A DNA stretch of 64,000 nt. Source: Streptomyces sp. NBC_01717. Lineage in GTDB: Bacteria > Actinomycetota > Actinomycetes > Streptomycetales > Streptomycetaceae. The notes beneath the pieces were generated by a model. That model saw only the letters and a program-made list of their open reading frames with translations. It was not told the DNA's origin and did not search any database. Below, one piece after another: positions 21,865-33,598 of the stretch (its first letter is position 1; the number at the start of each line of letters is the position of its first letter). Location of the stretch: NCBI RefSeq assembly GCF_036248255.1, contig NZ_CP109178.1, positions 434,001-498,000 on the forward strand, written 5' to 3'. The position numbers were made by a program, and so were the translations under genes.

Positions 21865-22698
21865 CTACTGCGAACGGCGGTCGAAGAGGACCGGGTTGCG
21901 CGGGGTGTCGGGAATGGCGCCGACCTCCGCACCCGGCATCCACCCGCGGTCCGCCACCTGGTGGTCGTTGACAGGATCGGCGACCCTGATGTCCGCGTCC
22001 ATGTAGATCACCGTCATGACGCGGCGCGGCACGGAGCCTCTGTTGGGCCCGGCGTGGTGGAAGGTCCACCCTCGATGGAAGCTGGCGTCTCCCAGTGCGA
22101 ACGGCTCCACAACGTCCTCGAAGTCATGCTCGGCCAGCGCCTGCGCGACGCGGGCCTCCGACTCGTCGCTGATCGGCAGGTCGCGGCCGAGCGAGAAGGT
22201 ATGGCTGCCCCGCGCGAAGGCCAGCGGCCCCATCTCCATCGGGGTCTCCTGCAGCGGCAGCCACAGCGTGCCCACCCGATCCGTCGACAGCGGCCAGTAG
22301 TACTGGTCCGCGTGCCAGGGCGTGATCCCGCCGCTCGGCTCCTTGTACAGCGCCTGGTCGTGGTACAGGCGTACCGACGCCACGCCGAGCAGGCCGGCGG
22401 CGATGGAGGCGAGCCGTCGGGAGAAGACGAGTTCCCTCACCTGCGCGCTGTGTTCCCACAAATTGCCCACCTGCAGGAACGCCTTGCCATAGGTGTCGCG
22501 CTCCGCCAGCGGACGGTGCTGCCTGTTCAGCCGGATGACTTCGCTGGTGACCGCCGGCTCGTACGTGGCAACCGTCTCCGCCGTCAGCACCGCCGGCAGT
22601 TGGACGAAGCCGTCACGTGCGAAGTCGTCGACGGCGCGCCGCGGGAGCGGGTAGGGCCGGTCCAGTTCGGTGACGGCCGTTTCGGACGTGGGGCTCAT
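21865..22698 (-). CDS. Phytanoyl-CoA dioxygenase (PhyH) family oxygenase, second copy
   Basis: A 277-residue Fe(II)/2-oxoglutarate oxygenase. ITPWHADQYYWPLSTDR carries the HxD pair, and GWTFHHAGPNRG supplies the distal His, with a likely co-substrate Arg downstream. It differs in length and sequence from the PhyH protein at 7617. It is the last gene of the long minus-strand cluster, 88 bases downstream of the IclR gene. In context it probably hydroxylates a pathway substrate or intermediate. A CTTTCG-rich leader with GGAGCAG lies before ATG 22698. Confidence 0.85.
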   Translation of the reverse strand: MSPTSETAVTELDRPYPLPRRAVDDFARDGFVQLPAVLTAETVATYEPAVTSEVIRLNRQHRPLAERDTYGKAFLQVGNLWEHSAQVRELVFSRRLASIAAGLLGVASVRLYHDQALYKEPSGGITPWHADQYYWPLSTDRVGTLWLPLQETPMEMGPLAFARGSHTFSLGRDLPISDESEARVAQALAEHDFEDVVEPFALGDASFHRGWTFHHAGPNRGSVPRRVMTVIYMDADIRVADPVNDHQVADRGWMPGAEVGAIPDTPRNPVLFDRRSQ

Positions 22699-22786
22699 GG
22701 GACTGCTCCTTCGAAAGGGGAAGTCAGTTCGACGCCTCCCAGCCTCACAGGGCGATCAGTCGACAACTACCGTTCAGCCGGCTCCG

Positions 22787-23563
22787 TCAGGCGACCGAGG
22801 ATCTGAGCCGTGCGCCGAGGGAGCGGGAGATGCCGCGCGCCGCGACCTGCACCAGAGGGGCGAGGGCGTGCGGGTTCACGGCATCCGCGTGGGCGACCAC
22901 CGATACCGCGGCGACGACGGTGTTCTCCGGCCCGTACACGGGGGCGGCGACCGACACGGCATCCATCGTCACCTGCCGGTCGCTGACGGCGACTCCGGTA
23001 CGGCGCACCTCGGCGAGGGCGCGGCGGACCTCGGCCGGGGCGCAGAGAGTCTTCTCCGTGTGCCGGACAAACGGTCGGGAGAGCACCTGTTCCTGGACAT
23101 CCTGGCCGGCGTGGGCGAGGAGGACGAGGCCGACGCCGGTGGGCGCGAGGTCGAATCGCCCGCCGACGCGGGTGAGGACCCGGACCGCGTCGCGGCCCGC
23201 GAGGCGCTCCACATACACGACGGACAGCTCCTCGCGGACGGCGAGCTGCACGTTCTCGCGGGTGATGTGGCCGAGGTCGGAGAGGTGCGGCAGGGCCGCC
23301 TCGCGCAGGCCGAGGCCGCGCGGGGCGAGGGAGGCGATCTCCCACAGCCTCAGCCCGATGCGATATCCGCCGCCCGGCTCGCGTTCGAGCGCGCCCCAGT
23401 CGGCCAGTTCCTTCACCAGCCGGTGGGCGGTGGTGAGGGGCAGGCCGGTGTGGCGGGAGATCTCGGCGAGCCGCAGCACGGGCCGAGCCGGAGCGAAGGC
23501 TTCCAACACCTGGAGAGCCCTGGCTGTCACCGAACAGTTGCCGGTCGAGGCTTTGCGCTGCAT
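22787..23563 (-). CDS. IclR-family transcriptional regulator
   Basis: A 258-residue regulator. The winged HTH is at about residues 10-65 (VLRLAEISRHTGLPLTTAHR, LVKELADWGALER), followed by the GAF-like effector domain (ENVQLAVREELSVVYVERL; PTGVGLVLLAHA). ATG 23563 follows GAGGAGGCC; an in-frame ATG 48 bases upstream adds non-family residues. IclR proteins usually control aromatic or organic-acid catabolism. An IclR-like palindrome (26195-26211) lies in front of the Rieske oxygenase gene, so that unit is the likely target. Confidence 0.92.
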   Translation of the reverse strand: MQRKASTGNCSVTARALQVLEAFAPARPVLRLAEISRHTGLPLTTAHRLVKELADWGALEREPGGGYRIGLRLWEIASLAPRGLGLREAALPHLSDLGHITRENVQLAVREELSVVYVERLAGRDAVRVLTRVGGRFDLAPTGVGLVLLAHAGQDVQEQVLSRPFVRHTEKTLCAPAEVRRALAEVRRTGVAVSDRQVTMDAVSVAAPVYGPENTVVAAVSVVAHADAVNPHALAPLVQVAARGISRSLGARLRSSVA

Positions 23564-23767
23564 GCCGGCCTCCTCGCCGTACGCCCTGCGCTCCACCGTG
23601 GACCCGGGCACTTCACCGAGAAGCTAGGCAGACATCTCCCGGCCGTCAACACTCTGTCAACGATTCGCCGTGGCGTGCCCTGCGGGAACCGGAGGCTTCG
23701 GGCGACTGCGGACATTCACCGGCGTCCGGACGCCGACATGCCCTGCCGTCGCCGATCCCAGCAGCCG

Positions 23768-24736
23768 TCACAGATCCAGGACGAGCCTTGGGCATGATGC
23801 CCGGGAAACGCAGATCATCATCGTGTCATGGCTGCTCTGCTCGGCGGGGGTGAGGAGCGAGTCGCGGTGGTCGACCGTGCCGTCCAGCACCGCGGTCTCG
23901 CAGGTGCCACAGGTGCCCTCCTGACAGGAGGAGAGGACCTGTACACCGGCCTCCTCGACCGCCTGGAGCACGGACTTGTCCGGCGGAACGGTCACCGTGA
24001 TGCCGGACTGCGCCAGTTCGACAGCGAACGCCGCGTCCCGCAGGGGCGCCTGCAGCTCCTTGGGCGTGAACCGTTCGAGGTGCAGGGCGCCGTCGGGCCA
24101 GTCGGCGCACCGCTCCTCGACGGCCTTGAGCAACGGCTCCGGGCCGCAGCAGTAGATGAGTGTGCCCGGCTGCGGGGTAGCCAGGAGCGCGTCCAGGTCG
24201 AGGAGGCCGTACTCGTCCTCGGGGCGGACCCGCACCCGCTCGTCGTACCGCTTGACGAGTTCGTCACGGAAGGCCATCGACGCCAGGGTCCGCCCTCCGT
24301 ACACCATCTCCCATGCGGATCCGAGCCGTTCGGCCTCAGCCAGCATCGGGATGATCGGTGTGACGCCGATCCCGCCCGCGATGAAGAGGTACCGTTCGGC
24401 GCGCTCCAGGGGGAAGTGGTTGCGCGGACCGCGCACCCTGACCGCGTCGCCTTCGGCCAGCGTGTCGTGCACGTGGAGTGAACCGCCGCGGCCGTCCTTC
24501 TCCAGGAGGACGGCGACGCGCCACACCTCCGCTTCTTCCGGCGAGGAACACAGCGAGTACTGCCGCACAAGGTTCGGTGCCGGCAGGAGGTCGATGTGCG
24601 CGCCGGGCGTCCAGGCGGGCAGGGAGGCGCCGTCGGGCCGCCGCAGGTCGAGCGAGACGACGCCGTCCGCCTCGTCGGTACGGCGGGCCACGACGAGTTC
24701 GAGTTCGGCCTCGGGCGCGGTGGTGTTTCTGGTCAT
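23768..24736 (-). CDS. VanB-type oxygenase reductase (FMN / NAD / plant-type ferredoxin)
   Basis: A 322-residue electron-transfer protein. The order is FMN-binding barrel (about 1-110; RQYSLCSSPEEAEVWRVAV), NAD(P)-binding domain (FIAGGIGVTPIIPMLAEAE; IYCCGPEPLL) and a C-terminal [2Fe-2S] ferredoxin. Its ligands are seen as SSCQEGTCGTC plus a distal Cys in MMICVS (C-x4-C-x2-C-xn-C). This is the phthalate/vanillate reductase layout that feeds electrons to a Rieske oxygenase. It is 25 bases downstream of the 76-residue protein and in one operon with the oxygenase. Confidence 0.92.
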   Translation of the reverse strand: MTRNTTAPEAELELVVARRTDEADGVVSLDLRRPDGASLPAWTPGAHIDLLPAPNLVRQYSLCSSPEEAEVWRVAVLLEKDGRGGSLHVHDTLAEGDAVRVRGPRNHFPLERAERYLFIAGGIGVTPIIPMLAEAERLGSAWEMVYGGRTLASMAFRDELVKRYDERVRVRPEDEYGLLDLDALLATPQPGTLIYCCGPEPLLKAVEERCADWPDGALHLERFTPKELQAPLRDAAFAVELAQSGITVTVPPDKSVLQAVEEAGVQVLSSCQEGTCGTCETAVLDGTVDHRDSLLTPAEQSSHDTMMICVSRASCPRLVLDL

Positions 24737-24760
24737 CAGAGGATCCTTGAGTACGCGAGG

Positions 24761-24991
24761 TCAGGCGCCGACGAGTCGGCGGGGGTGGGGAGTTACTTCT
24801 GGGGGCGGGGCGGCCCCCTGGCCCGGGTGCCCGTCGGGGTGGGCGAGCAGCCACTCCCACAACTCCACCGGGTCCTCGGACTCCCGGTCCTCACCGCACC
24901 AGCACCAGCCGCGCAGCCGGTCCGTGCCGGGGACCCACACGATCCGGTAGACCGTCTCCCCGTCGAGCATCGTCGTGGGCTGCGTGCTCAT
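24761..24991 (-). CDS. Small CWCG protein between Rieske oxygenase and reductase
   Basis: A 76-residue soluble protein with a central GWCWCGEDRESEDPVELWEW segment and a proline-rich tail. ATG 24991 overlaps the oxygenase stop as ATGA, so it is translationally coupled. The spacing and GC pattern of neighbours support a real gene. I do not recognise a named family. A role in metal or cluster handling or as a small accessory of the oxygenase would fit the CxC motif and position, but this is inference. Confidence 0.75.
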   Translation of the reverse strand: MSTQPTTMLDGETVYRIVWVPGTDRLRGWCWCGEDRESEDPVELWEWLLAHPDGHPGQGAAPPPEVTPHPRRLVGA

Positions 24992-26058
24992 CGGACGCCC
25001 ACCGTGGAGCCGGCGGTGCCGGCCTCGACCATCCGCTTGAGGATGCGCCGGGCGGCCAGGCCACCGGTGTCGATGTTGATGCTGAGCTCCTGCGTCCCGG
25101 CCGGCTCGGAGGCGATGACCCGCTCCAGTTTGTCGAGTGCGACGACGTCCTGGAGGACGACGGTGCGGTTGTTCTCCAGCAGGAAGTCGGAGACCTTCTG
25201 GTCCTGCAGGGCGAAGTCGCGTGCCACGGCCCAGAAGTCGTGGGTGCTGTGCTCGGTCTCGGGGGTGATGGCGTAGACGACCTCGACGTGGAAGGCGTCC
25301 GGATCGCTGCCGTCGACGTGCGGGCCCGGCGTTCCGACCGGGGCGATGCGGGAGTGCAGAAGGTAGAGGCAGGGAGCGTGGTACTCGATGTCCTGCCATC
25401 GCGTGATGCGGCCGGTGATGCCGGTGGACTCGGAGTAGAACGGCGGGCAGGCCGCGTCGTCCATGTGCCGACTGACGTGGACGACGCCCGCCTTGTCGTC
25501 GACCTCGGTGGTGATCGGGGTCTCGGCGACCTCGGGCGTGCCGATGTAGCCGCCGTGCAGGTACGTCTCGTGGGACAGGTCGAGCAGGTTGTCGACGAGA
25601 AGACCGTAGCGGGCCGCGAGCGGCTCCATGCCGCAGACGGTGGTGTAGTCGGACGAGTCCAGCCAGGGGGCACGCGGGATCAGGGTCTTGTCGGCCTGGT
25701 CGTGGTCGCCGATCCACACCCACACGAAGGAGTCCTGCTCCGTGACGGGGTAGGAGGTGAGCCGGGCGGTGCGCGGCACGCGCTTCTGTCCGGGCACGCT
25801 CACGCAGACACCGTCCGCACCGTAGGTGAAGCCGTGGTAGCCGCAGACGACCGTGTCGCCGTCCAGTCGGCTCGGCTTCTCGGAGAGCGGGAAACGGCGG
25901 TGCACGCAGCGATCCGCCATGGCGGTGACCTCGCCCGCCTCGGTGCGCCAGAAAAGGATCGACTCGCCACAGATGGTGCGGGTGAACAGCTCCCGCCCGA
26001 TCTCGCTGCCGTAGGCGGCCACGTACCACTGGTTGCGCGCGAATGACGTCGTCGTCAT
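24988..26058 (-). CDS. Rieske non-heme iron oxygenase, VanA-like
   Basis: A 356-residue oxygenase component. The Rieske cluster ligands are Cys51/His53 (DRCVHRRF) and Cys72/His75 (VCGYHGF). The mononuclear iron site is in DNLLDLSHETYLHGG (two His), with a later Asp expected near the C-terminus. Length and motifs match the one-component-alpha vanillate/dicamba demethylase group rather than ring-hydroxylating alpha-beta enzymes. ATG 26058 is chosen because GGGGAG sits six bases upstream; ATG 26064 abuts that site. O-demethylation or N-demethylation is the commonest activity of this group; the substrate is unknown. Confidence 0.9.
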   Translation of the reverse strand: MTTTSFARNQWYVAAYGSEIGRELFTRTICGESILFWRTEAGEVTAMADRCVHRRFPLSEKPSRLDGDTVVCGYHGFTYGADGVCVSVPGQKRVPRTARLTSYPVTEQDSFVWVWIGDHDQADKTLIPRAPWLDSSDYTTVCGMEPLAARYGLLVDNLLDLSHETYLHGGYIGTPEVAETPITTEVDDKAGVVHVSRHMDDAACPPFYSESTGITGRITRWQDIEYHAPCLYLLHSRIAPVGTPGPHVDGSDPDAFHVEVVYAITPETEHSTHDFWAVARDFALQDQKVSDFLLENNRTVVLQDVVALDKLERVIASEPAGTQELSINIDTGGLAARRILKRMVEAGTAGSTVGVR

Positions 26059-26373
26059 CGTCATCTCCCCTGCGTTCGGGCGGGCCCGAACGCGTAGACG
26101 GATTGCGGGATTTGGATACCGTTGCCCTGCTGCCTGCGGGCCGGGGCGGAGCGCTTCCCAGAGTGCTGCAGGCACGCGCCTGCGAACAGGGCGCCTTCCG
26201 TTGAACGGAAGTCCGGCGCCGGGTGGTTCGGGGCCTTCGCGGCCGCGATGACGTCCGTCCGCCCCCGCGATCGGCAGGCCGCCGGTCAGCGGGTCGGACC
26301 CCACCGGGCCGGCCGGGAGCGCAGCCCATGGCGCTTCGGCGCCCGACCCCGGCCAGGGAGAACGGACTTGCGG
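26059..26373. promoter_or_regulatory. Promoter region of the Rieske operon with two palindromes
   Basis: This 315-base gap has no gene. Two inverted repeats stand out. GTTCGGGC-GG-GCCCGAAC is at 26074-26091, next to the ribosome-binding site. CTTCCGTT-G-AACGGAAG is at 26195-26211 and resembles known IclR-family operators. The second is placed for regulation by the IclR protein at 22787-23563. The gap separates two transcription units of the catabolic cluster. Confidence 0.6.
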
Positions 26374-27792
26374 TCAGGTCTGGACCGCCGGCCTTGCCGT
26401 CGTCACGCCGGTCGCGGGCAGCTCCGCGGACAGTGCGCCCTCGGCCTCGGCCGGCAGCCTGCGCTGGACCCGGCCGAGCGCGAACAGCACGAGCACCATC
26501 ACCGCCGGACAGACCGAGAACACGGTGAACGCCCCGCGTGCCCCGAGACCGGCGTCGAGGATGACGCCGCCGAGCCAGGGTCCGGCCATGGCACCGACCT
26601 TGGCGACGGAGGACGCCCAGGCGGCACCGTTGGCTCGGATCGCCGTGGGGTAGAAGGTGCCGGCGATGCTGGTGATGCCACCATGGCCGCTGTTGATGAA
26701 CATCTTGGCGCCGATGACGAAGGCGACGTAGACGGCCGGACCGAGCACACCGGTGCCCAGAACCAGCATGCAGACGACGGCTGCGAGCGGCATCCACAGG
26801 ATGGTGCCCGCGCCCTTGCGATCGACGAACCGGCTGATGAACAGCTGCCCGACGGCGCCCGCGACGCTCGCGCACGCGGCGATGGTGGCGGCGGCGCTCA
26901 CGCTGAAGCCCATCCGCTCGTTGATCATCGGGGTCCAGAAGACCATGAAGTAGATCAGCGCCGAGGAGAGCAGGTAGACCAACCACAGCAGTGGTGTGAT
27001 GCCCATGAGGTGGCCGCGGAAGAGCTGGGCAGGGGTGAACCGCTTGCCGTGATCGGCCTGTTGCGGATCGCCGGTGGTGAAGCGGGTCCCGGGCTCGATG
27101 GCCAGGTCCGGCTGGAGGCGGGCCAGGATGCGGGCGATGCGCTCATCGCTGCCGGGGCGGGCCTTCAGCGCCAGGAACTTCACCGACTCGGGCAACAGCG
27201 CCAGCATCGCAAAGACGGTGAGCAGGGAGCAGACACCGCCGACGACGAACACCGAGCGCCAGCCGTGTTCCGGAATCAGCCAGTTGGAGACGGGGCCGCC
27301 CGCGGCGCCGCCGAGGGTGTAGCCGGCCATGATGATCGACACAGCGGTCACCCGGAACCGCTTCGGCGCGTACTCGGCCGCCAGGGCCCAGGTCAGTGGT
27401 AGCACCCCGCCGAGGAAGAGCCCGGAGACGAACCGCAGGGCGACCAGGTGTCCGTACGTGCCCGCATAGGCGAAGCCGAGCATGAAGAGGCCGAAGCCGA
27501 CGACCGAGACAGCGATGATGGGACGGCGGCCGATCCGGTCGGCCAGATAGCCCATGATCAAAGCACCGATCATGGTGCCGAACAGGCCGACCGTACCGAG
27601 GGTGCCGAGCTGGGTCTCGGTGAGCGCGAAATCCTTCCGGATGTAGGTGGCGGCGAACGACAGGATCTGGAAGTCGAAGCCGTCGAGGAAGGTGATCAAG
27701 CAGCAGACGGCGTACATCAGCAGCCATGAGCGGCTCGCGCGCTGCCGCTCGACGATCGGGGCCAGTTCCACAACGGGCGGTGCGGCGCTCAT
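26374..27792 (-). CDS. MFS transporter, aromatic-acid:H+ symporter-like
   Basis: A 472-residue protein with about 12 membrane segments. LITFLDGFDFQILSFAATYI is the TM1 signature (DGFD) of the AAHS group, and the loop 2-3 motif is GYLADRIGRRP. A cytoplasmic loop of about 60 residues separates the halves. ATG 27792 follows GAGGAGCTGTCC and overlaps the AcnX small-subunit stop, so it is coupled to the dehydratase genes. It probably imports the acid that the cluster degrades. Transporters of this type carry benzoates, vanillate and non-aromatic acids, so the cargo remains open. Confidence 0.88.
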   Translation of the reverse strand: MSAAPPVVELAPIVERQRASRSWLLMYAVCCLITFLDGFDFQILSFAATYIRKDFALTETQLGTLGTVGLFGTMIGALIMGYLADRIGRRPIIAVSVVGFGLFMLGFAYAGTYGHLVALRFVSGLFLGGVLPLTWALAAEYAPKRFRVTAVSIIMAGYTLGGAAGGPVSNWLIPEHGWRSVFVVGGVCSLLTVFAMLALLPESVKFLALKARPGSDERIARILARLQPDLAIEPGTRFTTGDPQQADHGKRFTPAQLFRGHLMGITPLLWLVYLLSSALIYFMVFWTPMINERMGFSVSAAATIAACASVAGAVGQLFISRFVDRKGAGTILWMPLAAVVCMLVLGTGVLGPAVYVAFVIGAKMFINSGHGGITSIAGTFYPTAIRANGAAWASSVAKVGAMAGPWLGGVILDAGLGARGAFTVFSVCPAVMVLVLFALGRVQRRLPAEAEGALSAELPATGVTTARPAVQT

Positions 27793-28241
27793 GGACAGCT
27801 CCTCGTCGCTGAGGTGTGCGGGATCGGTGCGGGGTGCACGGTGACGGTGCCGTGGTCGGCGTCGATGCGGACCCGGTCGCCTGTGCGGATGACGGTCAGC
27901 GGGTCCTGGTCCAGGCCGGTCACGGTGGGTACGCGGGTGACGACCGCGCCGAGGGCGGCCTTGGTGGTCGTCGTCACGAAGATCATGCCGAGGGGGGCGG
28001 TGCCGGCGAGCCGGGTCGCCTGGAAGAAGCCCGCCCAGCCGGAGGAACCCTTGGCGCCCGGGAACACCAGGATCTTCCCGGCGAAGGACTGGCCGTACAG
28101 CGGGTGGCGGCGTTCGATGACGACGCCGCGGGCCGGGTCGATGCCGCCCCATCCGGAGACGGTCTCGGCCGATACGAGTGCCTCGCCCTCCACTAGGCCG
28201 GGGACGACGGTCCGCCCCCGCAGGACCACGGCGTCGCTCAT
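27789..28241 (-). CDS. Aconitase-X small (swivel) subunit, DUF126
   Basis: A 150-residue protein with the DUF126 core: LRGRTVVPGLVEGEALVSAE, GWGGIDPARGVV and FPGAKGSSGWAGFF. In AcnX enzymes this swivelling domain pairs with the DUF521 catalytic subunit and carries the serine-containing loop (KGSSG). Here the two are separate genes, with large and small overlapping as ATGA (28238-28241). Characterised AcnX enzymes dehydrate cis-3-hydroxyproline (bacteria) or mevalonate 5-phosphate (archaea); this one may act on another hydroxy acid. Confidence 0.88.
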   Translation of the reverse strand: MSDAVVLRGRTVVPGLVEGEALVSAETVSGWGGIDPARGVVIERRHPLYGQSFAGKILVFPGAKGSSGWAGFFQATRLAGTAPLGMIFVTTTTKAALGAVVTRVPTVTGLDQDPLTVIRTGDRVRIDADHGTVTVHPAPIPHTSATRSCP

Positions 28242-29518
28242 CGCAGGTCTCCTTTCCAGATGCCGGTGACAGCGGCATCGATGCAGTCGGCGAGCGTGCC
28301 GAACCAGGCCTCGATGCCGAGGATCGCGGGCAGGTAGTGGGCCTGCTTCGCCGAGTCGGTGGCGAAGACCTTCGTGCCGGGTGGCGCGGAGCGGGACATG
28401 GCGGGGCAGGAGTCGGTGAGCACGCGGCCGCCGGCGCGCTCGATGGTCTGCGTCCAGCCGTTGCGGTCCGCGGTCGTGCGCAGTGCTCGTGGCACCATCA
28501 GCCACAATTGGGTGCCGGAGTTGAGCCGCCGCCCCTCCAGCAGCCGCGCGGTGTCGCGGACCTGGTCGAGCGAGGCGTGCGGGCAGCCGAGCAGGACGAA
28601 GTCCACGTCCGGGCTTGTGCCCTGGGAGTTGAGGTCCTCATAGACGGCACGGCGCTCGCGTTCCCCGTACGGCACGGCCTCGGGGATCCGCCGGCCGCCA
28701 AAGGCTGCCTCGAGACTCGGGGCTTCGGGGGTGATGCCGGGAAGGTGGTAGATCTCGACCCCGCCGGAGGATGCGGCGGCCGCCCCGAAGTGCTTGAGGT
28801 CGAGCAGGTCGGGCTGGGCCAGCGCGCCGGTGACGACCGGGCGTTCCTCCTGGACGAGGCCTCCGGCGAAGTAGCCGAGCATGCCCCAGTCGAGTGGCCC
28901 CGCCACCGGTGTGCGGACGTCGACGTGGTGGGTGCCGATCCGGTTCTCGGTGCGGTGGTTGCCCCAGCAGGGGATGCGGCCGGTGAGCGAGGCCGCTCCG
29001 GTGGAGGCCGTGCCTTCGCAGTTGGTGCGTGCGCCCACCACCGAGTTGGCGTAGACGACCGCCGAGGACTCCATCCAGGCCAGATGTTCGCCACGTACGG
29101 GGATGTTGCCCACTTGGTACGGCGTGCAGGTGGCGAGGATGTTGACGCCCTTGCGGCTGTAGAACGCCTCGGCGTCGGACTGCAGCGCGACGAGCTCCTT
29201 CGGGTAGGGGGCGACGCCCTCGGCGTCGGGACCGAAGCTCTGCTGGAGCTGGCAGGTGGGTACCTTCATGTCGGGGATGGTGAAGTCGCCGTCGCTGTCG
29301 AGGTTGAGCACGGCGTACGCCTTGTGCCAGCCACCTTCCCGTGCGAGCTGTGCTTTGGCGGGCGACGGCTGGGTCATGGTCCCCGCCACGTTCCGCACGT
29401 CGCACAGCTCCTCGGCGTCCAACGCTTGCCCGTAGCGGACGAGGAGGTCCATAGCTGCCGCGACCGCGGGTCCTTCGGCGCCGTCGAGCATGGCCTTGTC
29501 GGTGTCGTTGAGCTTCAT
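28238..29518 (-). CDS. Aconitase-X catalytic large subunit, DUF521
   Basis: A 426-residue protein of the AcnX/DUF521 family. MKLNDTDKAMLDGAEGPAVA is the family N-terminus; conserved blocks AVVYANSVVGARTNCEGTAS and VDFVLLGCPHASLDQVRDTA hold likely cluster cysteines and active-site residues. ATG 29518 follows an AAGGA site and overlaps the IlvD-type stop as ATGA. The enzyme should contain an iron-sulfur cluster and dehydrate a hydroxy acid with the small subunit. Its pairing with a second dehydratase, of IlvD type, is unusual. Confidence 0.88.
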   Translation of the reverse strand: MKLNDTDKAMLDGAEGPAVAAAMDLLVRYGQALDAEELCDVRNVAGTMTQPSPAKAQLAREGGWHKAYAVLNLDSDGDFTIPDMKVPTCQLQQSFGPDAEGVAPYPKELVALQSDAEAFYSRKGVNILATCTPYQVGNIPVRGEHLAWMESSAVVYANSVVGARTNCEGTASTGAASLTGRIPCWGNHRTENRIGTHHVDVRTPVAGPLDWGMLGYFAGGLVQEERPVVTGALAQPDLLDLKHFGAAAASSGGVEIYHLPGITPEAPSLEAAFGGRRIPEAVPYGERERRAVYEDLNSQGTSPDVDFVLLGCPHASLDQVRDTARLLEGRRLNSGTQLWLMVPRALRTTADRNGWTQTIERAGGRVLTDSCPAMSRSAPPGTKVFATDSAKQAHYLPAILGIEAWFGTLADCIDAAVTGIWKGDLR

Positions 29519-31209
29519 GCGCTCGTGGTTCCTTCCCTGGGCGTGCGCGGGGTGAGTACCGCGCCTTCCTGGAGCGGGCGGACCGTCCGCAGGTAGACGG
29601 ACAGCCATCCGCGCTCGGCCTCCGCGCACGGGGTCCAGGGGATGCGGGTGGCCAGTTCCTCGTCCGGTACGAGGAGGTCGGCGCGCCGGGTCGTGAGGTC
29701 GATGGAGATCGTGTCGCCGTCCCGGACCAGGGCCAGCGGCCCGCCGTCGGCGGCCTCCGGGGAGACCTCGCCGACGACGATGCCCTTGTTGACCAGGCCG
29801 GAGAGTTGTCCGTCGGTGACGACGGCGACCTTGCCGGTCAGCCCGGCCCCGTCGAGCGCGAAGACGGGCCGCGAGGCCATGCCCATGCCGGGAGTGCCCT
29901 TGGGCCCGAGACCGCGCAGCACCAGCACCTGTCCCGGCAGCACATCTCCGGCACGCAACCCGTCAAGCGCGTCCTGCGGACTGTCGTACACCTTGGCCGG
30001 TCCGGTGAACGACGGCGGGCGCTCCTCGTCGACCGCCAGCTTGACGATTCCGGTGGCCGGCGCGAGCGAGCCGCGGACCAGGACGATCGTGGGCCTGCGG
30101 CCGAGCGCTCGCTCCGGCGGCCGGATCACCTCGGGGTCCTTGGGCTGTCGTTCCCTGAGCTCCTCACCGAGAGTGCGGCCCGTGATGGTCAGGGCCTCGG
30201 TATGCAGCAGCTCGCGCAGCTGCCACAGCACTCCCGACGCTCCGCCGGCCGCCTCGAACTCGTCGATGGAGTACGGTCCGTTCGGCCGTACGGCGGCCAG
30301 CAGCGGGACCTGGTCGGCGAGCCGCTCGTACATGCCGTACACGTCGATGCCGGTGTGCGCCTCCTCGGCGATCGCCTGCAGGTGCTTGACGGAATTGATG
30401 GACGCGCTGACGGCGAGCATGACCGTCACCGCGTTCTCGAAGGCCTCGCGGGTGAGCAGGGCGCGGGGGCGCAGGTCCTCGCGGACGACGTCGACGATCC
30501 GGCGCCCCGCAGCCCGCACATCGGCCCACATCCTCGGGCTGTTGGCGAGCACCGGTGTGGAGCCGGGCAGCGCCATACCGAGCGCCTCGCAGGCGATGTG
30601 CATGGAGTTGGCGGTGCCCATGCCGGCGCATACGCCCGGTCCCGCGACGGCGTTCTCGCTCATACCGGTCAGTTCGTCCAGGCTGATGCGGCCCTGTGCG
30701 TGGTGGCCCGCGGCGAGGAAGACGTCCTCGATGTCGCAGTGGCGCCCGGCGAAGGTGCCGCAGGCCTGATAGCCGCAGCCGACGACGACGGTCGGCAGAT
30801 CGAGCCGCGCTGCCGCCATCAGCTGCCCTGGGGCGGTCTTGTCGCAGGAGGCGAGCGTGAGCATGCCGTCGAGCTGGGCGCCTTCGACGGCGGCCTCGAT
30901 GTCATGGGTGATCAGGTCGCGAGCGGAGAGAATGTAGCCACCGCGGCCGCCCGCGCTGTGGATGAAGTCGCTCGGGGCAACGGTGCGGATTTCGAAGCCG
31001 ATGCCGCCGGACTCGGCGATCGCCTCCTTGGCGGCCCTCGCGATGTCGTCGAGGTGGCTGTAGCAGGTGGCGAGCTGGGACGAGGAGTTGACGATGGCGA
31101 TCTTCGGCTTGGCCATGTCCTCGTCGGTGAGGCCGAGGGCTCGCCACTGTGCGCGCCGGACGGCCCACGGAGACGTTCCGGGGGTGTAGTTGCTGCGGAG
31201 TGCGGTCAT
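29515..31209 (-). CDS. IlvD/Edd-family dehydratase
   Basis: A 564-residue dehydratase. The Fe-S cysteines appear in SSSQLATCYSHLDD, LASCDKTAPGQLMAAARLD and GYQACGTFAGRHCD. The C-terminal barrel includes GTPGMGMASRPVFAL and VTDGQLSGLVNKGIVVGEVS. This family covers dihydroxy-acid, 6-phosphogluconate and several sugar-acid dehydratases; the length and RHCD motif lean toward the sugar-acid/IlvD group rather than Edd. Placement with AcnX, a FAD oxidoreductase and oxygenases argues against branched-chain amino-acid synthesis. It ends in an ATGA overlap with the AcnX gene and starts 11 bases after the FAD oxidoreductase stop. Confidence 0.88.
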   Translation of the reverse strand: MTALRSNYTPGTSPWAVRRAQWRALGLTDEDMAKPKIAIVNSSSQLATCYSHLDDIARAAKEAIAESGGIGFEIRTVAPSDFIHSAGGRGGYILSARDLITHDIEAAVEGAQLDGMLTLASCDKTAPGQLMAAARLDLPTVVVGCGYQACGTFAGRHCDIEDVFLAAGHHAQGRISLDELTGMSENAVAGPGVCAGMGTANSMHIACEALGMALPGSTPVLANSPRMWADVRAAGRRIVDVVREDLRPRALLTREAFENAVTVMLAVSASINSVKHLQAIAEEAHTGIDVYGMYERLADQVPLLAAVRPNGPYSIDEFEAAGGASGVLWQLRELLHTEALTITGRTLGEELRERQPKDPEVIRPPERALGRRPTIVLVRGSLAPATGIVKLAVDEERPPSFTGPAKVYDSPQDALDGLRAGDVLPGQVLVLRGLGPKGTPGMGMASRPVFALDGAGLTGKVAVVTDGQLSGLVNKGIVVGEVSPEAADGGPLALVRDGDTISIDLTTRRADLLVPDEELATRIPWTPCAEAERGWLSVYLRTVRPLQEGAVLTPRTPREGTTSA

Positions 31210-31220
31210 GAATCGGCTCC

Positions 31221-32513
31221 TCAGTCGTCGACGTTTGCGGCGAGGCGGGCGCGGAGGGCTGCGAGGTCGATCCCGTGCACGCTGCCATCGCGTCCGGCGA
31301 GATCCAGGGCGTGGGCGGCGCCCGCCCCCATGGCCGCGCAGGGACCCATGACGCGCACGCTGGAGAGGGCCGCCGCATCGCCGTCGGCGCAGCGTCCGGC
31401 GGCCACGAGGTTGTCGCAGTCCGGGGAGAGCAGGGAGCGCAGTGGTACGTAGTGGACGTGGTCGGCGTCGAAGGTCTCCCAGACGTACCCGTCCGCACGG
31501 TCGTGCAGCTCGATGGGCCAGGCGGTGCGGGCGACCGCGTCCTCGAAGCGGGTTCCGGCCCTCACCTCGTCGAGCGACAGCTGGTGGCTGCCCTTGATCC
31601 AGCGGGTCTGCCGCCTTCCCGGGAGACCGTACGAGCGGACTTTCGCCTCGCCGAAGGCCTTCGGGAATTCCGCACGCAGGAACTCGACCACCCGGTCGGC
31701 CTGTTCACGGCCGTCGAGCTGGGCGGCAGACGCCTCGACCGGGTCGAGCGGGGCCGGTATGTGGGTCATGTTGAGGACGGCGGTGTTCCGTCCGGGGAAG
31801 AAGAAGGCGAGCCCGTCGCGGCGGACCAGTCCCCATTCGGGCGCCTTGGCGTGGACCTGCTCGGCAAGCTCCTCACGGCCCGGCTGATGCTCCTCGTGCA
31901 GGTGCTCCAGGACGATCTGCTGCGATCCGTAGATGGTTCGTTCCGGCACGCGGCAGGCCAGCCCAGCCTCCCAGGCAAGCGCCGCGTCGCCGGTGGCGTC
32001 GACGAAGCCGGGCGCGGTGACCCGCACGGTTCCGTGCCGGGTGGCGAAGGACACCGCCGCGATGCGCCGACCGTCCCGCTCCACACCGGTGATCGAGGCC
32101 CCGAGGACGACACGGATGCCCAGTTCCCGGATCCGCCGCTCCACCCACCGGCCCAGCGCCACCTCGTCATAGGTGACGGTGATGGTGTGGCCACGGTTGG
32201 TGTGCAGATCGCCGGAAGCATCCAGGTCGGCGAAGATTCCGTCGAAGATGCCGTGGGTGAGCTGCCGGTAGCCGGGCCCGTTTCCGTACACCCCGCAGAA
32301 CAGTCCGATCAGCGAGTTCACCATCTGCCCACCGAGCACGGGCAGACTGTCCACGAGGACGACGTCCCGCCCGAGCTGCGCGCTCTCGATCGCGGCGGAG
32401 ATTCCGGAGACCCCCGCCCCCACCACGCAGACATCGGCGTCGAGTTGATGGCTCGCCGTACCGGTCTGCTTGGTGACGGTATGGACTTTCAGCTCGGTCA
32501 GGGCATGGGGCAT
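31221..32513 (-). CDS. FAD-dependent oxidoreductase (FAD_oxidored type)
   Basis: A 430-residue flavoprotein. The dinucleotide-binding motif is DVCVVGAGVSGISAAIESAQ near residue 27, followed by VVLVDSLPVLGGQMVNSLIG, typical of the PF12831-like group. FVDATGDAALAWEAGL and DCDNLVAAGRCADGDAAALS are further FAD contacts. ATG 32513 has AGGAGATCTCC directly upstream; an in-frame ATG at 32555 does not. It is the first enzyme gene after the LysR gene and probably oxidises or isomerises an early intermediate. No signal peptide is seen. Confidence 0.87.
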   Translation of the reverse strand: MPHALTELKVHTVTKQTGTASHQLDADVCVVGAGVSGISAAIESAQLGRDVVLVDSLPVLGGQMVNSLIGLFCGVYGNGPGYRQLTHGIFDGIFADLDASGDLHTNRGHTITVTYDEVALGRWVERRIRELGIRVVLGASITGVERDGRRIAAVSFATRHGTVRVTAPGFVDATGDAALAWEAGLACRVPERTIYGSQQIVLEHLHEEHQPGREELAEQVHAKAPEWGLVRRDGLAFFFPGRNTAVLNMTHIPAPLDPVEASAAQLDGREQADRVVEFLRAEFPKAFGEAKVRSYGLPGRRQTRWIKGSHQLSLDEVRAGTRFEDAVARTAWPIELHDRADGYVWETFDADHVHYVPLRSLLSPDCDNLVAAGRCADGDAAALSSVRVMGPCAAMGAGAAHALDLAGRDGSVHGIDLAALRARLAANVDD

Positions 32514-32641
32514 GGAGATCTCCTGTGCGAGGGGGCTGTGCCGCAGTCGGCTCACTGCTTGCCCGGCACACTAGGAAGCCCTGTTCCGCGGAGGGAATGC
32601 CCAGGTCGATAGAGCGTTCGGCTGGGTGGCATCAATGGCGT

Positions 32642-33598
32642 TTATGGTCCGAGGCTGTCCGCTGCCCGGGCCACCAGTTCACGCAGCCAGCTGTGCGCCG
32701 GGTCCTCGTCGTGGCTCGCGTCCCACCACAGGTGCTCCTCGAGCGAATCGAGCGGTACCGGACAGTCGAGCGTGCGCAGTCCGTGAGCCGACGGCAGCCG
32801 CGCGGTGAGCCGCTCCGGGATGAGCGCCACCCTCCGCGTGCCGGCGATGAAGTCGGGTACGGCCCGATAGCTCTCCACGCGTACGGCGATCCGCGGCCGG
32901 ATGCCCAGTGCGGTCAGCTGCCGGGTCGCCGGAGCGGCCGAGGGGTAGCCGTCGTCCCGGTGGTAGGGCACCACCCACGGCAGCCGTGCCAGGTCCTCGA
33001 TGCCGAATGCCCCGGCCTCGCACAGCGGATGACCGGTGGACACCAGGCAGACCCACCGGTCGCGGAAGAGCGGAACCGACCCGACCCCCGGGGTGCGAAA
33101 GTGGCCGAGAGACGGGGACACCAGACCGTCGACGAGGCGAATCGTGTCGCCCGCACCGCTGCCCAGAGTCTCCCGGACGAGCTGGAGATGAAGCGCCGCG
33201 TGCGGTGCGTCGCTGTCGAACAGCCGCGAGAGCGCGGGGCCGAGAACGGTTGCCGGATAGTCGGCCATCAGCAGCGTGAACTCCCGCTGTGTGGTGGCCG
33301 GATCGAACGCCGTGCCCGTCGCGAAGAGCCGCTCCGCCGCAGCGCACACCGTCTCGACCTGACCGGCGAGCTGCGCGGCGAGCGGCGTCAGCACGTAGGT
33401 GCCCTGGACCCTGACGAGCAACTCGTCCGCGAAGTGCCGGCGCAGCCGGGACAGCGAGGCGCTGACGGCCGGCTGGGTGACGCCGAGGTTGCGGGCGGCA
33501 CGGGTGACGTTCCGCTCGCGCAGCAGTGCGCGGAGCGTGACCAGGAGGTTGAGGTCGAGGTTGGCGAGGTGTGTGGGACGGGACTGCCGTGGGGTCAT
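32642..33598 (-). CDS. LysR-family transcriptional regulator of the catabolic cluster
   Basis: A 318-residue regulator. The N-terminal winged HTH begins LDLNLLVTLRALLRERNVTR and contains VTQPAVSASLSRLRRHF. The effector domain includes FTLLMADYPATVLGPALSRL. It resembles the NodD/NahR-type subgroup that responds to aromatic or organic acids. The frame stays open upstream for another 102 codons, but those residues are not LysR-like, so ATG 33598 is preferred. It is transcribed in the same direction as the FAD oxidoreductase, which starts 128 bases downstream of its stop. Confidence 0.9.
   Translation of the reverse strand: MTPRQSRPTHLANLDLNLLVTLRALLRERNVTRAARNLGVTQPAVSASLSRLRRHFADELLVRVQGTYVLTPLAAQLAGQVETVCAAAERLFATGTAFDPATTQREFTLLMADYPATVLGPALSRLFDSDAPHAALHLQLVRETLGSGAGDTIRLVDGLVSPSLGHFRTPGVGSVPLFRDRWVCLVSTGHPLCEAGAFGIEDLARLPWVVPYHRDDGYPSAAPATRQLTALGIRPRIAVRVESYRAVPDFIAGTRRVALIPERLTARLPSAHGLRTLDCPVPLDSLEEHLWWDASHDEDPAHSWLRELVARAADSLGP

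Follow-up and report, generated by a model that had tools for sequence, protein, structure and literature searches.

We analysed a stretch of 64,000 nucleotides (nt) from Streptomyces sp. NBC_01717 (NZ_CP109178.1, positions 434,001 to 498,000), referred to here as the window, in whose part from 21865 to 33598 ten genes follow one another on the minus strand of the 10.2-Mb genome (Table 1; start codons are our choice among the possible ones). The locus consists of two adjacent catabolic units and a stray PhyH gene rather than one pathway. Unit 1 is a compact operon for a LysR-family regulator, a flavin adenine dinucleotide (FAD)-dependent oxidoreductase, an IlvD-type dehydratase, the large and small subunits of an AcnX enzyme, and an importer of the major facilitator superfamily (MFS). 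Unit 2 comprises a VanA-type oxygenase, a reductase, and an IclR-family regulator. The genes of unit 1 overlap by 4 nt at three junctions (IlvD/AcnX large subunit, large/small subunit, and small subunit/MFS) and are separated by 128 nt between LysR and FAD and by 11 nt between FAD and IlvD. Past the MFS gene, the gaps are 309 nt to VanA and then 251, 156, and 88 nt, so the ten-gene stretch is not a single coupled operon. The original prediction, made from the sequence alone, had described eleven consecutive same-strand genes with many ATGA overlaps as one cluster and one pathway. The gene types (importer, oxygenases, two Fe-S dehydratases, flavoprotein, LysR and IclR regulators) were confirmed by profile matches with scores well beyond what chance would give, as was the strand. 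The count is ten, with no eleventh gene found, and the overlaps are confined to the three junctions, the others being gapped. The gaps and the conservation described below split the locus into two modules, and a single eleven-gene pathway was therefore rejected.

Table 1. Genes and palindromes of the locus, in window positions.
Feature	Position	Strand	Unit	Evidence and remarks
Palindrome TTCCG-N5-CGGAA	33644-33658	.	1	upstream of LysR
LysR-family regulator	32642-33598	-	1	Pfam HTH_1 and LysR_substrate; first gene of the AcnX operon
FAD-dependent oxidoreductase	31221-32513	-	1	PF12831; core gene
IlvD/EDD-family Fe-S dehydratase	29515-31209	-	1	profile matches; core gene
AcnX large subunit, Type-II kind	28238-29518	-	1	PF04412, 364.6 bits (cut-off 31.5)
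AcnX small (swivel, DUF126) subunit	27789-28241	-	1	catalytic-Ser motif GSSGW; match to Thermococcus 7cnr_B, E 1e-23
MFS importer, aromatic acid:H+ symporter-like	26374-27792	-	1	TIGR00895, 342.7 bits, under the cut-off of 418.55; ends the coupled operon
Palindrome TTCCG-N5-CGGAA	26196-26210	.	2	upstream of VanA
VanA-type Rieske O-demethylase oxygenase	24988-26064	-	2	VanA_C PF19112, 144.8 bits
Ferredoxin/FAD reductase, VanB-like	23768-24736	-	2	Fer2 and NAD_binding_1
IclR-family regulator	22787-23611	-	2	best NCBIfam PcaR/PcaU/PobR TIGR02431, 117 bits, under the cut-off of 284.75
PhyH Fe/2-oxoglutarate dioxygenase	21865-22698	-		PF05721, 78.9 bits; behind IclR

Both AcnX subunits match the family and keep the catalytic residues. 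The split AcnX of the original prediction corresponds to the ordinary two-subunit Type-II form described in a passage of PMC5144071. Passages of a crystal-structure paper from 2021 (PMC8184944) list the binding residues for cis-3-hydroxyproline and for mevalonate 5-phosphate, and describe the subclasses IIc-IIf as having no landmark residue of either substrate type and no assigned function. In the clade of the window AcnX, the three Thermococcus-type cysteines (C131, C312, and C371) and Glu150, Ser151, Ser152, Lys391, and Tyr395 are invariant in 84/84 rows, which include one genome twice. All 82 aligned swivels keep the catalytic Ser of the small subunit, and the position of Agrobacterium Trp35 is occupied by Trp in 70 of them and by Phe in the other 12. 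The residues that mark the known substrates are different. None of the 82 clade rows having letters at the Asp203 site has Asp there, and the window segment expected to hold this amine-binding residue, NVAGTMTQPSP, contains no acidic residue (the HMMER and MAFFT alignments are one column apart at this site). The Thr72 equivalent is Gly and the Cys71 equivalent is Ser in all 82 swivels. The equivalents of the phosphate-binding Ser50 and Asn53 would be Met and Pro, as deduced through the At/Tk equivalences of PMC8184944 with the Tk segment unaligned. Most of the clade also carries an insert of ~16 residues with LDSD or LDCD. Judged from these alignments, the window AcnX retains the carboxylate and hydroxyl contacts and appears to be without the known substrate-specific ones. 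It fits the Type IIc-IIf description as far as compared, the mevalonate residues being deduced indirectly and the lettered subclasses being defined by the supplementary alignment of the paper.

In a 67-row tree (110 rows before thinning), the clade of the window AcnX comprises 51 rows with a support of 99/94; the long branches (L147 and Tk; locus labels L and genome labels G are ours) are placed unsurely, and the Tk row is partial. The landmarks and the tree put the window AcnX in a Type-II kind outside the characterised clades, in the comparison with the cis-3-hydroxyproline and mevalonate-phosphate enzymes that the original prediction had suggested. Type I AcnX shares with it the family, the catalytic Ser, Glu, Ser, Lys, and Tyr, and two Fe-S cysteines. 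However, Type I is fused, whereas the subunits of the window enzyme are separate. At the GCPHAS position, where the three Type I rows have Ser, the window enzyme has a third cysteine, and Cys510 is replaced by Ala; it also differs by the missing Asp203, the insert, and a different gene neighbourhood. The Type IIb enzyme TkAcnX (Thermococcus mevalonate-5-phosphate dehydratase, 7cnr/7cns) has in common with it two subunits, three cysteines, E-S-S, K, and Y. It differs at the Ser50/Asn53 equivalents deduced above, in that the window enzyme is encoded in a bacterial operon with an importer, and in its separate branch, for which the Tk row is partial and long-branched. It is extremely unlikely that the window AcnX is simply a cis-3-hydroxyproline or mevalonate-5-phosphate dehydratase, in view of the separate clade and of the Asp203, Thr72, and Cys71 equivalents, absent in all rows with letters at these sites. 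A proline racemase, which accompanies AcnX in L099 and L100, was not seen among the ten window genes or the annotated neighbour groups. The cis-3-hydroxyproline identity in particular was rejected on the absence of its three landmarks.

The IlvD-type protein keeps the three Fe-S cysteine motifs of the IlvD/EDD family, like dihydroxy-acid dehydratase IlvD (6nte, 5ym0). However, its scores are below the equivalog cut-offs of that enzyme (504.4 bits vs 644 for PRK00911 and 477.7 vs 618 for TIGR00110), and its pocket motifs are altered from DGRFSGG to DGQLSGLVN and from GGSTNA to SASINS. The altered motif TDGQ.SGLVN.G is common to 54 aligned rows. The genome has three IlvD-family genes, of which the core IlvD is one. 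The AlphaFold model of the FAD protein (mean predicted local distance difference test score 88.5) has no close solved relative; its best template modeling score is ~0.5, at which the structural hits are a mixture of hydroxylases and reductases, and we dropped the attempt to name the FAD reaction from the fold.

The FAD, IlvD, and AcnX genes form a block that is conserved well beyond the genus. A scan for the AcnX large subunit, in which each species was represented by one genome, gave 341 matching places, and we kept the best 80 as loci. Homologues of the neighbours were counted at E 1e-15 and 40% coverage within 10-kb flanks. Because related sequences are not independent (one genome contributes L003, L024, and L148, and another L033 and L142), p-values should be taken as rough indications. 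The closest AcnX relative among the matches listed is that of S. antnestii (94%). The small subunit is present in 79/80 loci, and a PF12831 FAD oxidoreductase is near AcnX in 70/80. In 60 of the 80 loci this oxidoreductase is of the window type, always on the AcnX strand (60/60) and with a median gap of 48 nt; in the other ten it is diverged, with only two on the AcnX strand. An IlvD homologue occurs in 53/80 loci, FAD and IlvD together in 50, and neither in seven. Among the 59 loci of at least 20 kb, the corresponding numbers are 53 with FAD, 41 with IlvD, and 40 with both. A LysR homologue is found in 33/80 loci, on the AcnX strand in all 33. Carriers of the core belong to three phyla and include Actinomycetota, Rhizobiales, and one metagenome-assembled genome (MAG) of Terriglobia, and the core is also present on plasmids of Paroceanicella and Burkholderia. 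Its importers differ between loci, being MFS, NMT1-type ATP-binding cassette (ABC), branched-chain-type ABC, or, in L006, an opposite-strand tripartite ATP-independent periplasmic (TRAP) set.

As a control, we used 393 genomes of the class, which contain 16 full-length AcnX places outside the window (weak matches and L117, a partial AcnX at the end of a contig, were excluded). No FAD or IlvD neighbour was found at the nine loci of other AcnX kinds in this sample (seven of the hydroxyproline type, L132-L138, and L139 and L147). Nine loci of the window kind, seven from the class sample and two from the same genus, have FAD in 8/9 and IlvD in 7/9, the exceptions being L141, a 7-kb contig without both, and L143 without IlvD; several of the nine come from genomes already in the 80-locus scan. 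The window-type AcnX is present in 2/60 genomes of the same genus (G045 and G032). The original prediction had proposed a search for co-occurrence of the AcnX subunits, IlvD, and VanA. The block of FAD, IlvD, and AcnX recurs as stated above, and VanA (5/80) and PhyH (0/80) are not part of it. For the core, the claim of an undescribed catabolic route is supported, with AcnX outside the characterised clades and FAD and IlvD conserved as a block, and neither of the two outcomes that the original prediction had named as refuting it was observed for this part. The enzymes are members of known families, and no account of the cluster itself was found among the titles and abstract openings of the matches listed from the full text of open-licence literature, where a combination of the families gave no paper.

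Two loci appear to record an exchange of the core. In L055 (L055:3915-11718), a LysR (88%) and an MFS gene (86%) of the window type enclose remnants of FAD (residues 1-55) and of the swivel (residues 66-139), followed by a core that belongs to a different lineage (57% for IlvD, 68% for FAD, and 70% for AcnX). In L058 (L058:4045-11748), the same two genes enclose only swivel residues 66-146, again followed by an other-lineage core. The core may thus have been replaced beside an unchanged regulator and importer. These loci suggest that one regulator and one importer serve cores of both lineages, and hence that the substrate is the same throughout the AcnX clade.

An indication of the metabolic context is the companion pathway in the carrier genomes. 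We searched for pcaH, which encodes protocatechuate 3,4-dioxygenase, using TIGR02422 at E 1e-40. It is present in 50 of the 51 carriers of the core AcnX, the window's own genome included (49 above the cut-off), and in 23 of 30 further carriers. The total of 73/81 is consistent with membership of the core in a peripheral protocatechuate pathway. The base rate in the class sample is 133/393; that in Streptomyces is 23 of at least 43 genomes, and a test on this rate is only a bound. In the window's own genome, pcaI, J, H, G, B, and R lie together, 3.1 Mb from the window.

Unit 2 is a common free-standing module and, as judged by analogy, most likely encodes an ordinary vanillate demethylase. Its VanA_C/Rieske oxygenase with a separate ferredoxin reductase has the VanAB architecture, and the closest solved relative of the oxygenase is the dicamba O-demethylase DdmC (E 4e-38). 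Of 199 Streptomyces genomes, 73 encode a full-length VanA with 68% identity or more, and one additional copy is partial. We fetched ten VanA loci (7.5-19 kb each): the reductase is beside VanA in all ten, and none contains a window-kind AcnX, IlvD, or FAD gene. The window order VanA-reductase-IclR recurs without AcnX in L089 and L090. According to passages of PMC6904314, a VanA/reductase/IclR-type trio of S. scabies is overexpressed with hydroxycinnamates and is named vanillate monooxygenase, reductase, and IclR regulator. This trio (SCAB_15301/15321/15331) has the same three protein types as unit 2, being likened by description rather than by sequence, and the window VanA is nearest to O-demethylases. 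Unlike the trio, unit 2 follows an AcnX operon at a distance of 309 nt, and the palindrome upstream of VanA is also found at the promoter of that operon. The assignment rests on this resemblance, on the frequency of VanA in the genus, and on its occurrence without the core.

We hypothesize that the two units are adjacent catabolic modules for one ring-cleavage pathway, and we assign this explanation a probability of just under one half (0.48). In unit 1, the gene content would provide for import of a carboxylic acid by the MFS protein, a single redox step by the flavoprotein, and two dehydrations by the Fe-S enzymes. In view of the near-obligate pcaH co-occurrence, the product would enter the protocatechuate branch of the beta-ketoadipate pathway. 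In unit 2, VanA and its reductase would, by analogy, demethylate vanillate-type acids to protocatechuate. Both units may be under partly shared control, and their supplying the same ring-cleavage pathway would explain their adjacency; the PhyH gene would be a bystander. An AcnX clade lacking the characterised landmarks can now be linked to a conserved partner set (FAD and IlvD), to an importer, and to a pathway that almost always accompanies it (protocatechuate), and hence to a short, testable list of substrates. Protocatechuate made by Fe-S dehydration would be a new entry into a well-studied aromatic funnel, with relevance to lignin and plant-acid turnover.

Several findings weigh against this explanation, with regard to the pathway and, as described further below, to the shared control. 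IlvD is missing at 27/80 loci, nine of which are shorter than 20 kb. Eight of the 81 carriers have no pcaH, namely the isolate Trebonia kvetii (L072) and seven MAGs (L016, L019, L049, L051, L063, L079, and L084). Two plasmid records without pcaH are not genomes and are outside this count. No AcnX locus contains pcaH, so the association is genome-wide rather than a physical linkage, and a plant-matter lifestyle could account for it. The AcnX core might then degrade a hydroxy acid of plant or sugar type that has no relation to aromatics, with pcaH merely marking plant-litter generalists. The varied importers agree with such a role, and most substrates of IlvD-family enzymes are sugar acids or dihydroxy acids. 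However, in 50 carriers of the core, VanA of at least 69% identity is present in 25 and pcaH in 49, so aromatic catabolism as a lifestyle does not bring every marker to saturation, although VanA, with its taxon-limited spread, makes a weak control. Furthermore, pcaH is present in 7/7 window-type carriers of the class sample (one as a split match under the cut-off) and in 0/7 hydroxyproline-type carriers, with the unclassified G567 left aside, a comparison confounded by the latter genomes being mostly 1.5-3.5 Mb (G628, 5.7 Mb). We regard the non-aromatic acid as somewhat unlikely.

Assuming a protocatechuate product, the boldest form of our proposal starts from a hydroaromatic acid at the level of quinate (C7H12O6), which one dehydrogenation and two dehydrations would convert to protocatechuate; C7H12O6 minus two water and two H is C7H6O4. 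The operon would then be a second, non-homologous route from such acids, proceeding by flavin dehydrogenation and by AcnX and IlvD-type dehydrations, and an unassigned AcnX kind would gain a function. The classical route from quinate and shikimate to protocatechuate uses NAD or pyrroloquinoline quinone dehydrogenases, dehydroquinate dehydratase, and dehydroshikimate dehydratase. It likewise consists of one oxidation and two dehydrations with protocatechuate as the end product, but its enzymes are not Fe-S dehydratases or a flavoprotein of the window kind. The quinate-level route is unlikely. Removal of a beta-hydroxyl and an alpha-proton, the chemistry of AcnX homologues, has no simple mapping onto quinate, which also counts against our proposal, so other hydroaromatic acids may fit better. 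Alternatively, the core may act downstream of protocatechuate, its substrate being a tricarboxylate or lactone from ring fission, with aconitase-like chemistry on carboxymuconate. The near-obligate pcaH co-occurrence speaks for this placement, and carboxymuconate may be seen as resembling aconitate. However, the operon brings its own importer, and the pca cluster of the genome already has a pcaB-type gene, which makes this placement of the core very unlikely.

The relation between the two units was considered separately. Besides the window, VanA lies inside the AcnX locus in 5/80 cases (L010, L013, L029, L033, and L058), in several arrangements, where 0.09 would be expected on random placement. 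The chance of such proximity is P 5e-8 for at least five loci and 1e-4 for at least three; the estimate assumed 0.52 VanA-positive genomes, and the recount gave 25/50. The two units are thus neighbours more often than by chance. VanA of at least 69% identity is found in 10/12 Streptomyces carriers of the AcnX core, compared with the genus rate given above. A DesA/LigM-like protein occurs in 3/80 loci (Microbacterium and Phytoactinopolyspora); the one in L056, the only one scored, reached 565 and 517 bits vs cut-offs of 800 and 580. In 13/80 loci, the core is accompanied by an amidohydrolase belonging to one group, and seven of these loci also have an acyl-CoA ligase and a short-chain dehydrogenase/reductase. 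By analogy, these loci may correspond to the ferulate sets of S. scabies (PMC6904314) and Agrobacterium (PMC7797058), as these are described in passages of the two papers.

The proximity and frequency of VanA, the DesA/LigM-like proteins, and the palindrome found at both window promoters would also fit one integrated pathway, in which VanA demethylates a methoxylated or methylated acid and IlvD and AcnX then dehydrate the product. However, 75/80 core loci have no VanA, the ten fetched VanA loci have no core, and the trio of S. scabies is described, in the passages cited, as converting vanillate to protocatechuate. We consider an integrated pathway improbable. The order of VanA first and dehydrations last, as the original prediction had it, found no support, VanA being present in 73/199 genomes and the window-type AcnX in 2/60. 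What stands of its joining of the two units is the recurrent proximity and the shared palindrome of the window, without the proposed order of steps.

The palindrome TTCCG-N5-CGGAA occurs exactly twice in the 64 kb, where 0.05 would be expected, and two copies were obtained in 0/100 shuffles. It is also present within ~250 nt upstream of VanA in 11/15 other VanA loci (L010, L013, L058, L089, L092, L093, L095-L098, and one of the two VanA genes of L091). It is not present there in L029, L090, and L094; L033 offers only ~200 nt upstream. In 10/15 IclR-NMT1 loci, it lies between IclR and the core. The points against shared control concern the other promoter. At the 32 other LysR-type loci, no exact copy of the palindrome precedes LysR; nine of its ten letters are present in L009 and L026 (2% of random 380-nt stretches reach at least nine), and seven or eight in L010-L013. 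In addition, it occurs at 18 places in the 10.2 Mb, compared with two for the reversed pattern, and some of these are at promoters of other operons. Among the sites next to gene starts are those of a lactonase/isomerase-like divergent pair, a lactate permease, and a DUF6986 protein (G000:C1:2103659, 5692281, and 8188090; L165, L171, and L177). Specificity for this regulon was rejected on account of the 18 places, including those beside isomerase-like and lactate-permease genes. The palindrome may be an operator type common to several IclR-family systems. Because it is absent before LysR in relatives and has 18 genomic sites, the motif suggests shared control of both units in this strain and not across the family.

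The PhyH gene probably belongs to neither module and is a bystander, possibly a local addition to the locus. A PhyH homologue was found in 0/80 AcnX loci and 0/10 VanA loci, and its membership in the pathway was rejected on these counts.

Other genes accompany AcnX at some loci. PF04909 proteins accompany the core only at loci without IlvD: none of the eight loci concerned (L016, L026, L027, L038, L046, L053, L054, and L083) has IlvD, compared with 53 of the other 72, and most of the eight have two or more copies. For the protein of L027, the only one compared, the closest solved relatives are dinuclear monooxygenases of the AibH1H2 type, which are described in passages of PMC10811679. We did not accept these neighbours as proven oxygenases, as no Rieske ferredoxin motif was found at those loci. 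A homologue of the UGSC-family (seleno)proteins and an unassigned partner stand beside AcnX in L020, L048, L056, L064, L068, L070, L071, L074, and L075, and also in L144 and L146, mostly in Microbacteriaceae; three copies of the partner were scanned and had no Pfam match. The idea that this pair replaces FAD and IlvD was rejected: L020 has FAD, and L056 and six others have a diverged FAD (five of the six also IlvD). Near the core in L020 (L020:7227-9838) and L056 (L056:18325-20989) are an N,N-dimethyl-4-nitrosoaniline (NDMA)-dependent alcohol dehydrogenase (TIGR03989) and an aldehyde dehydrogenase. In the plasmid version of Burkholderia cenocepacia, a TauD-family dioxygenase (L007:13083-13997) lies between the MFS gene and AcnX.

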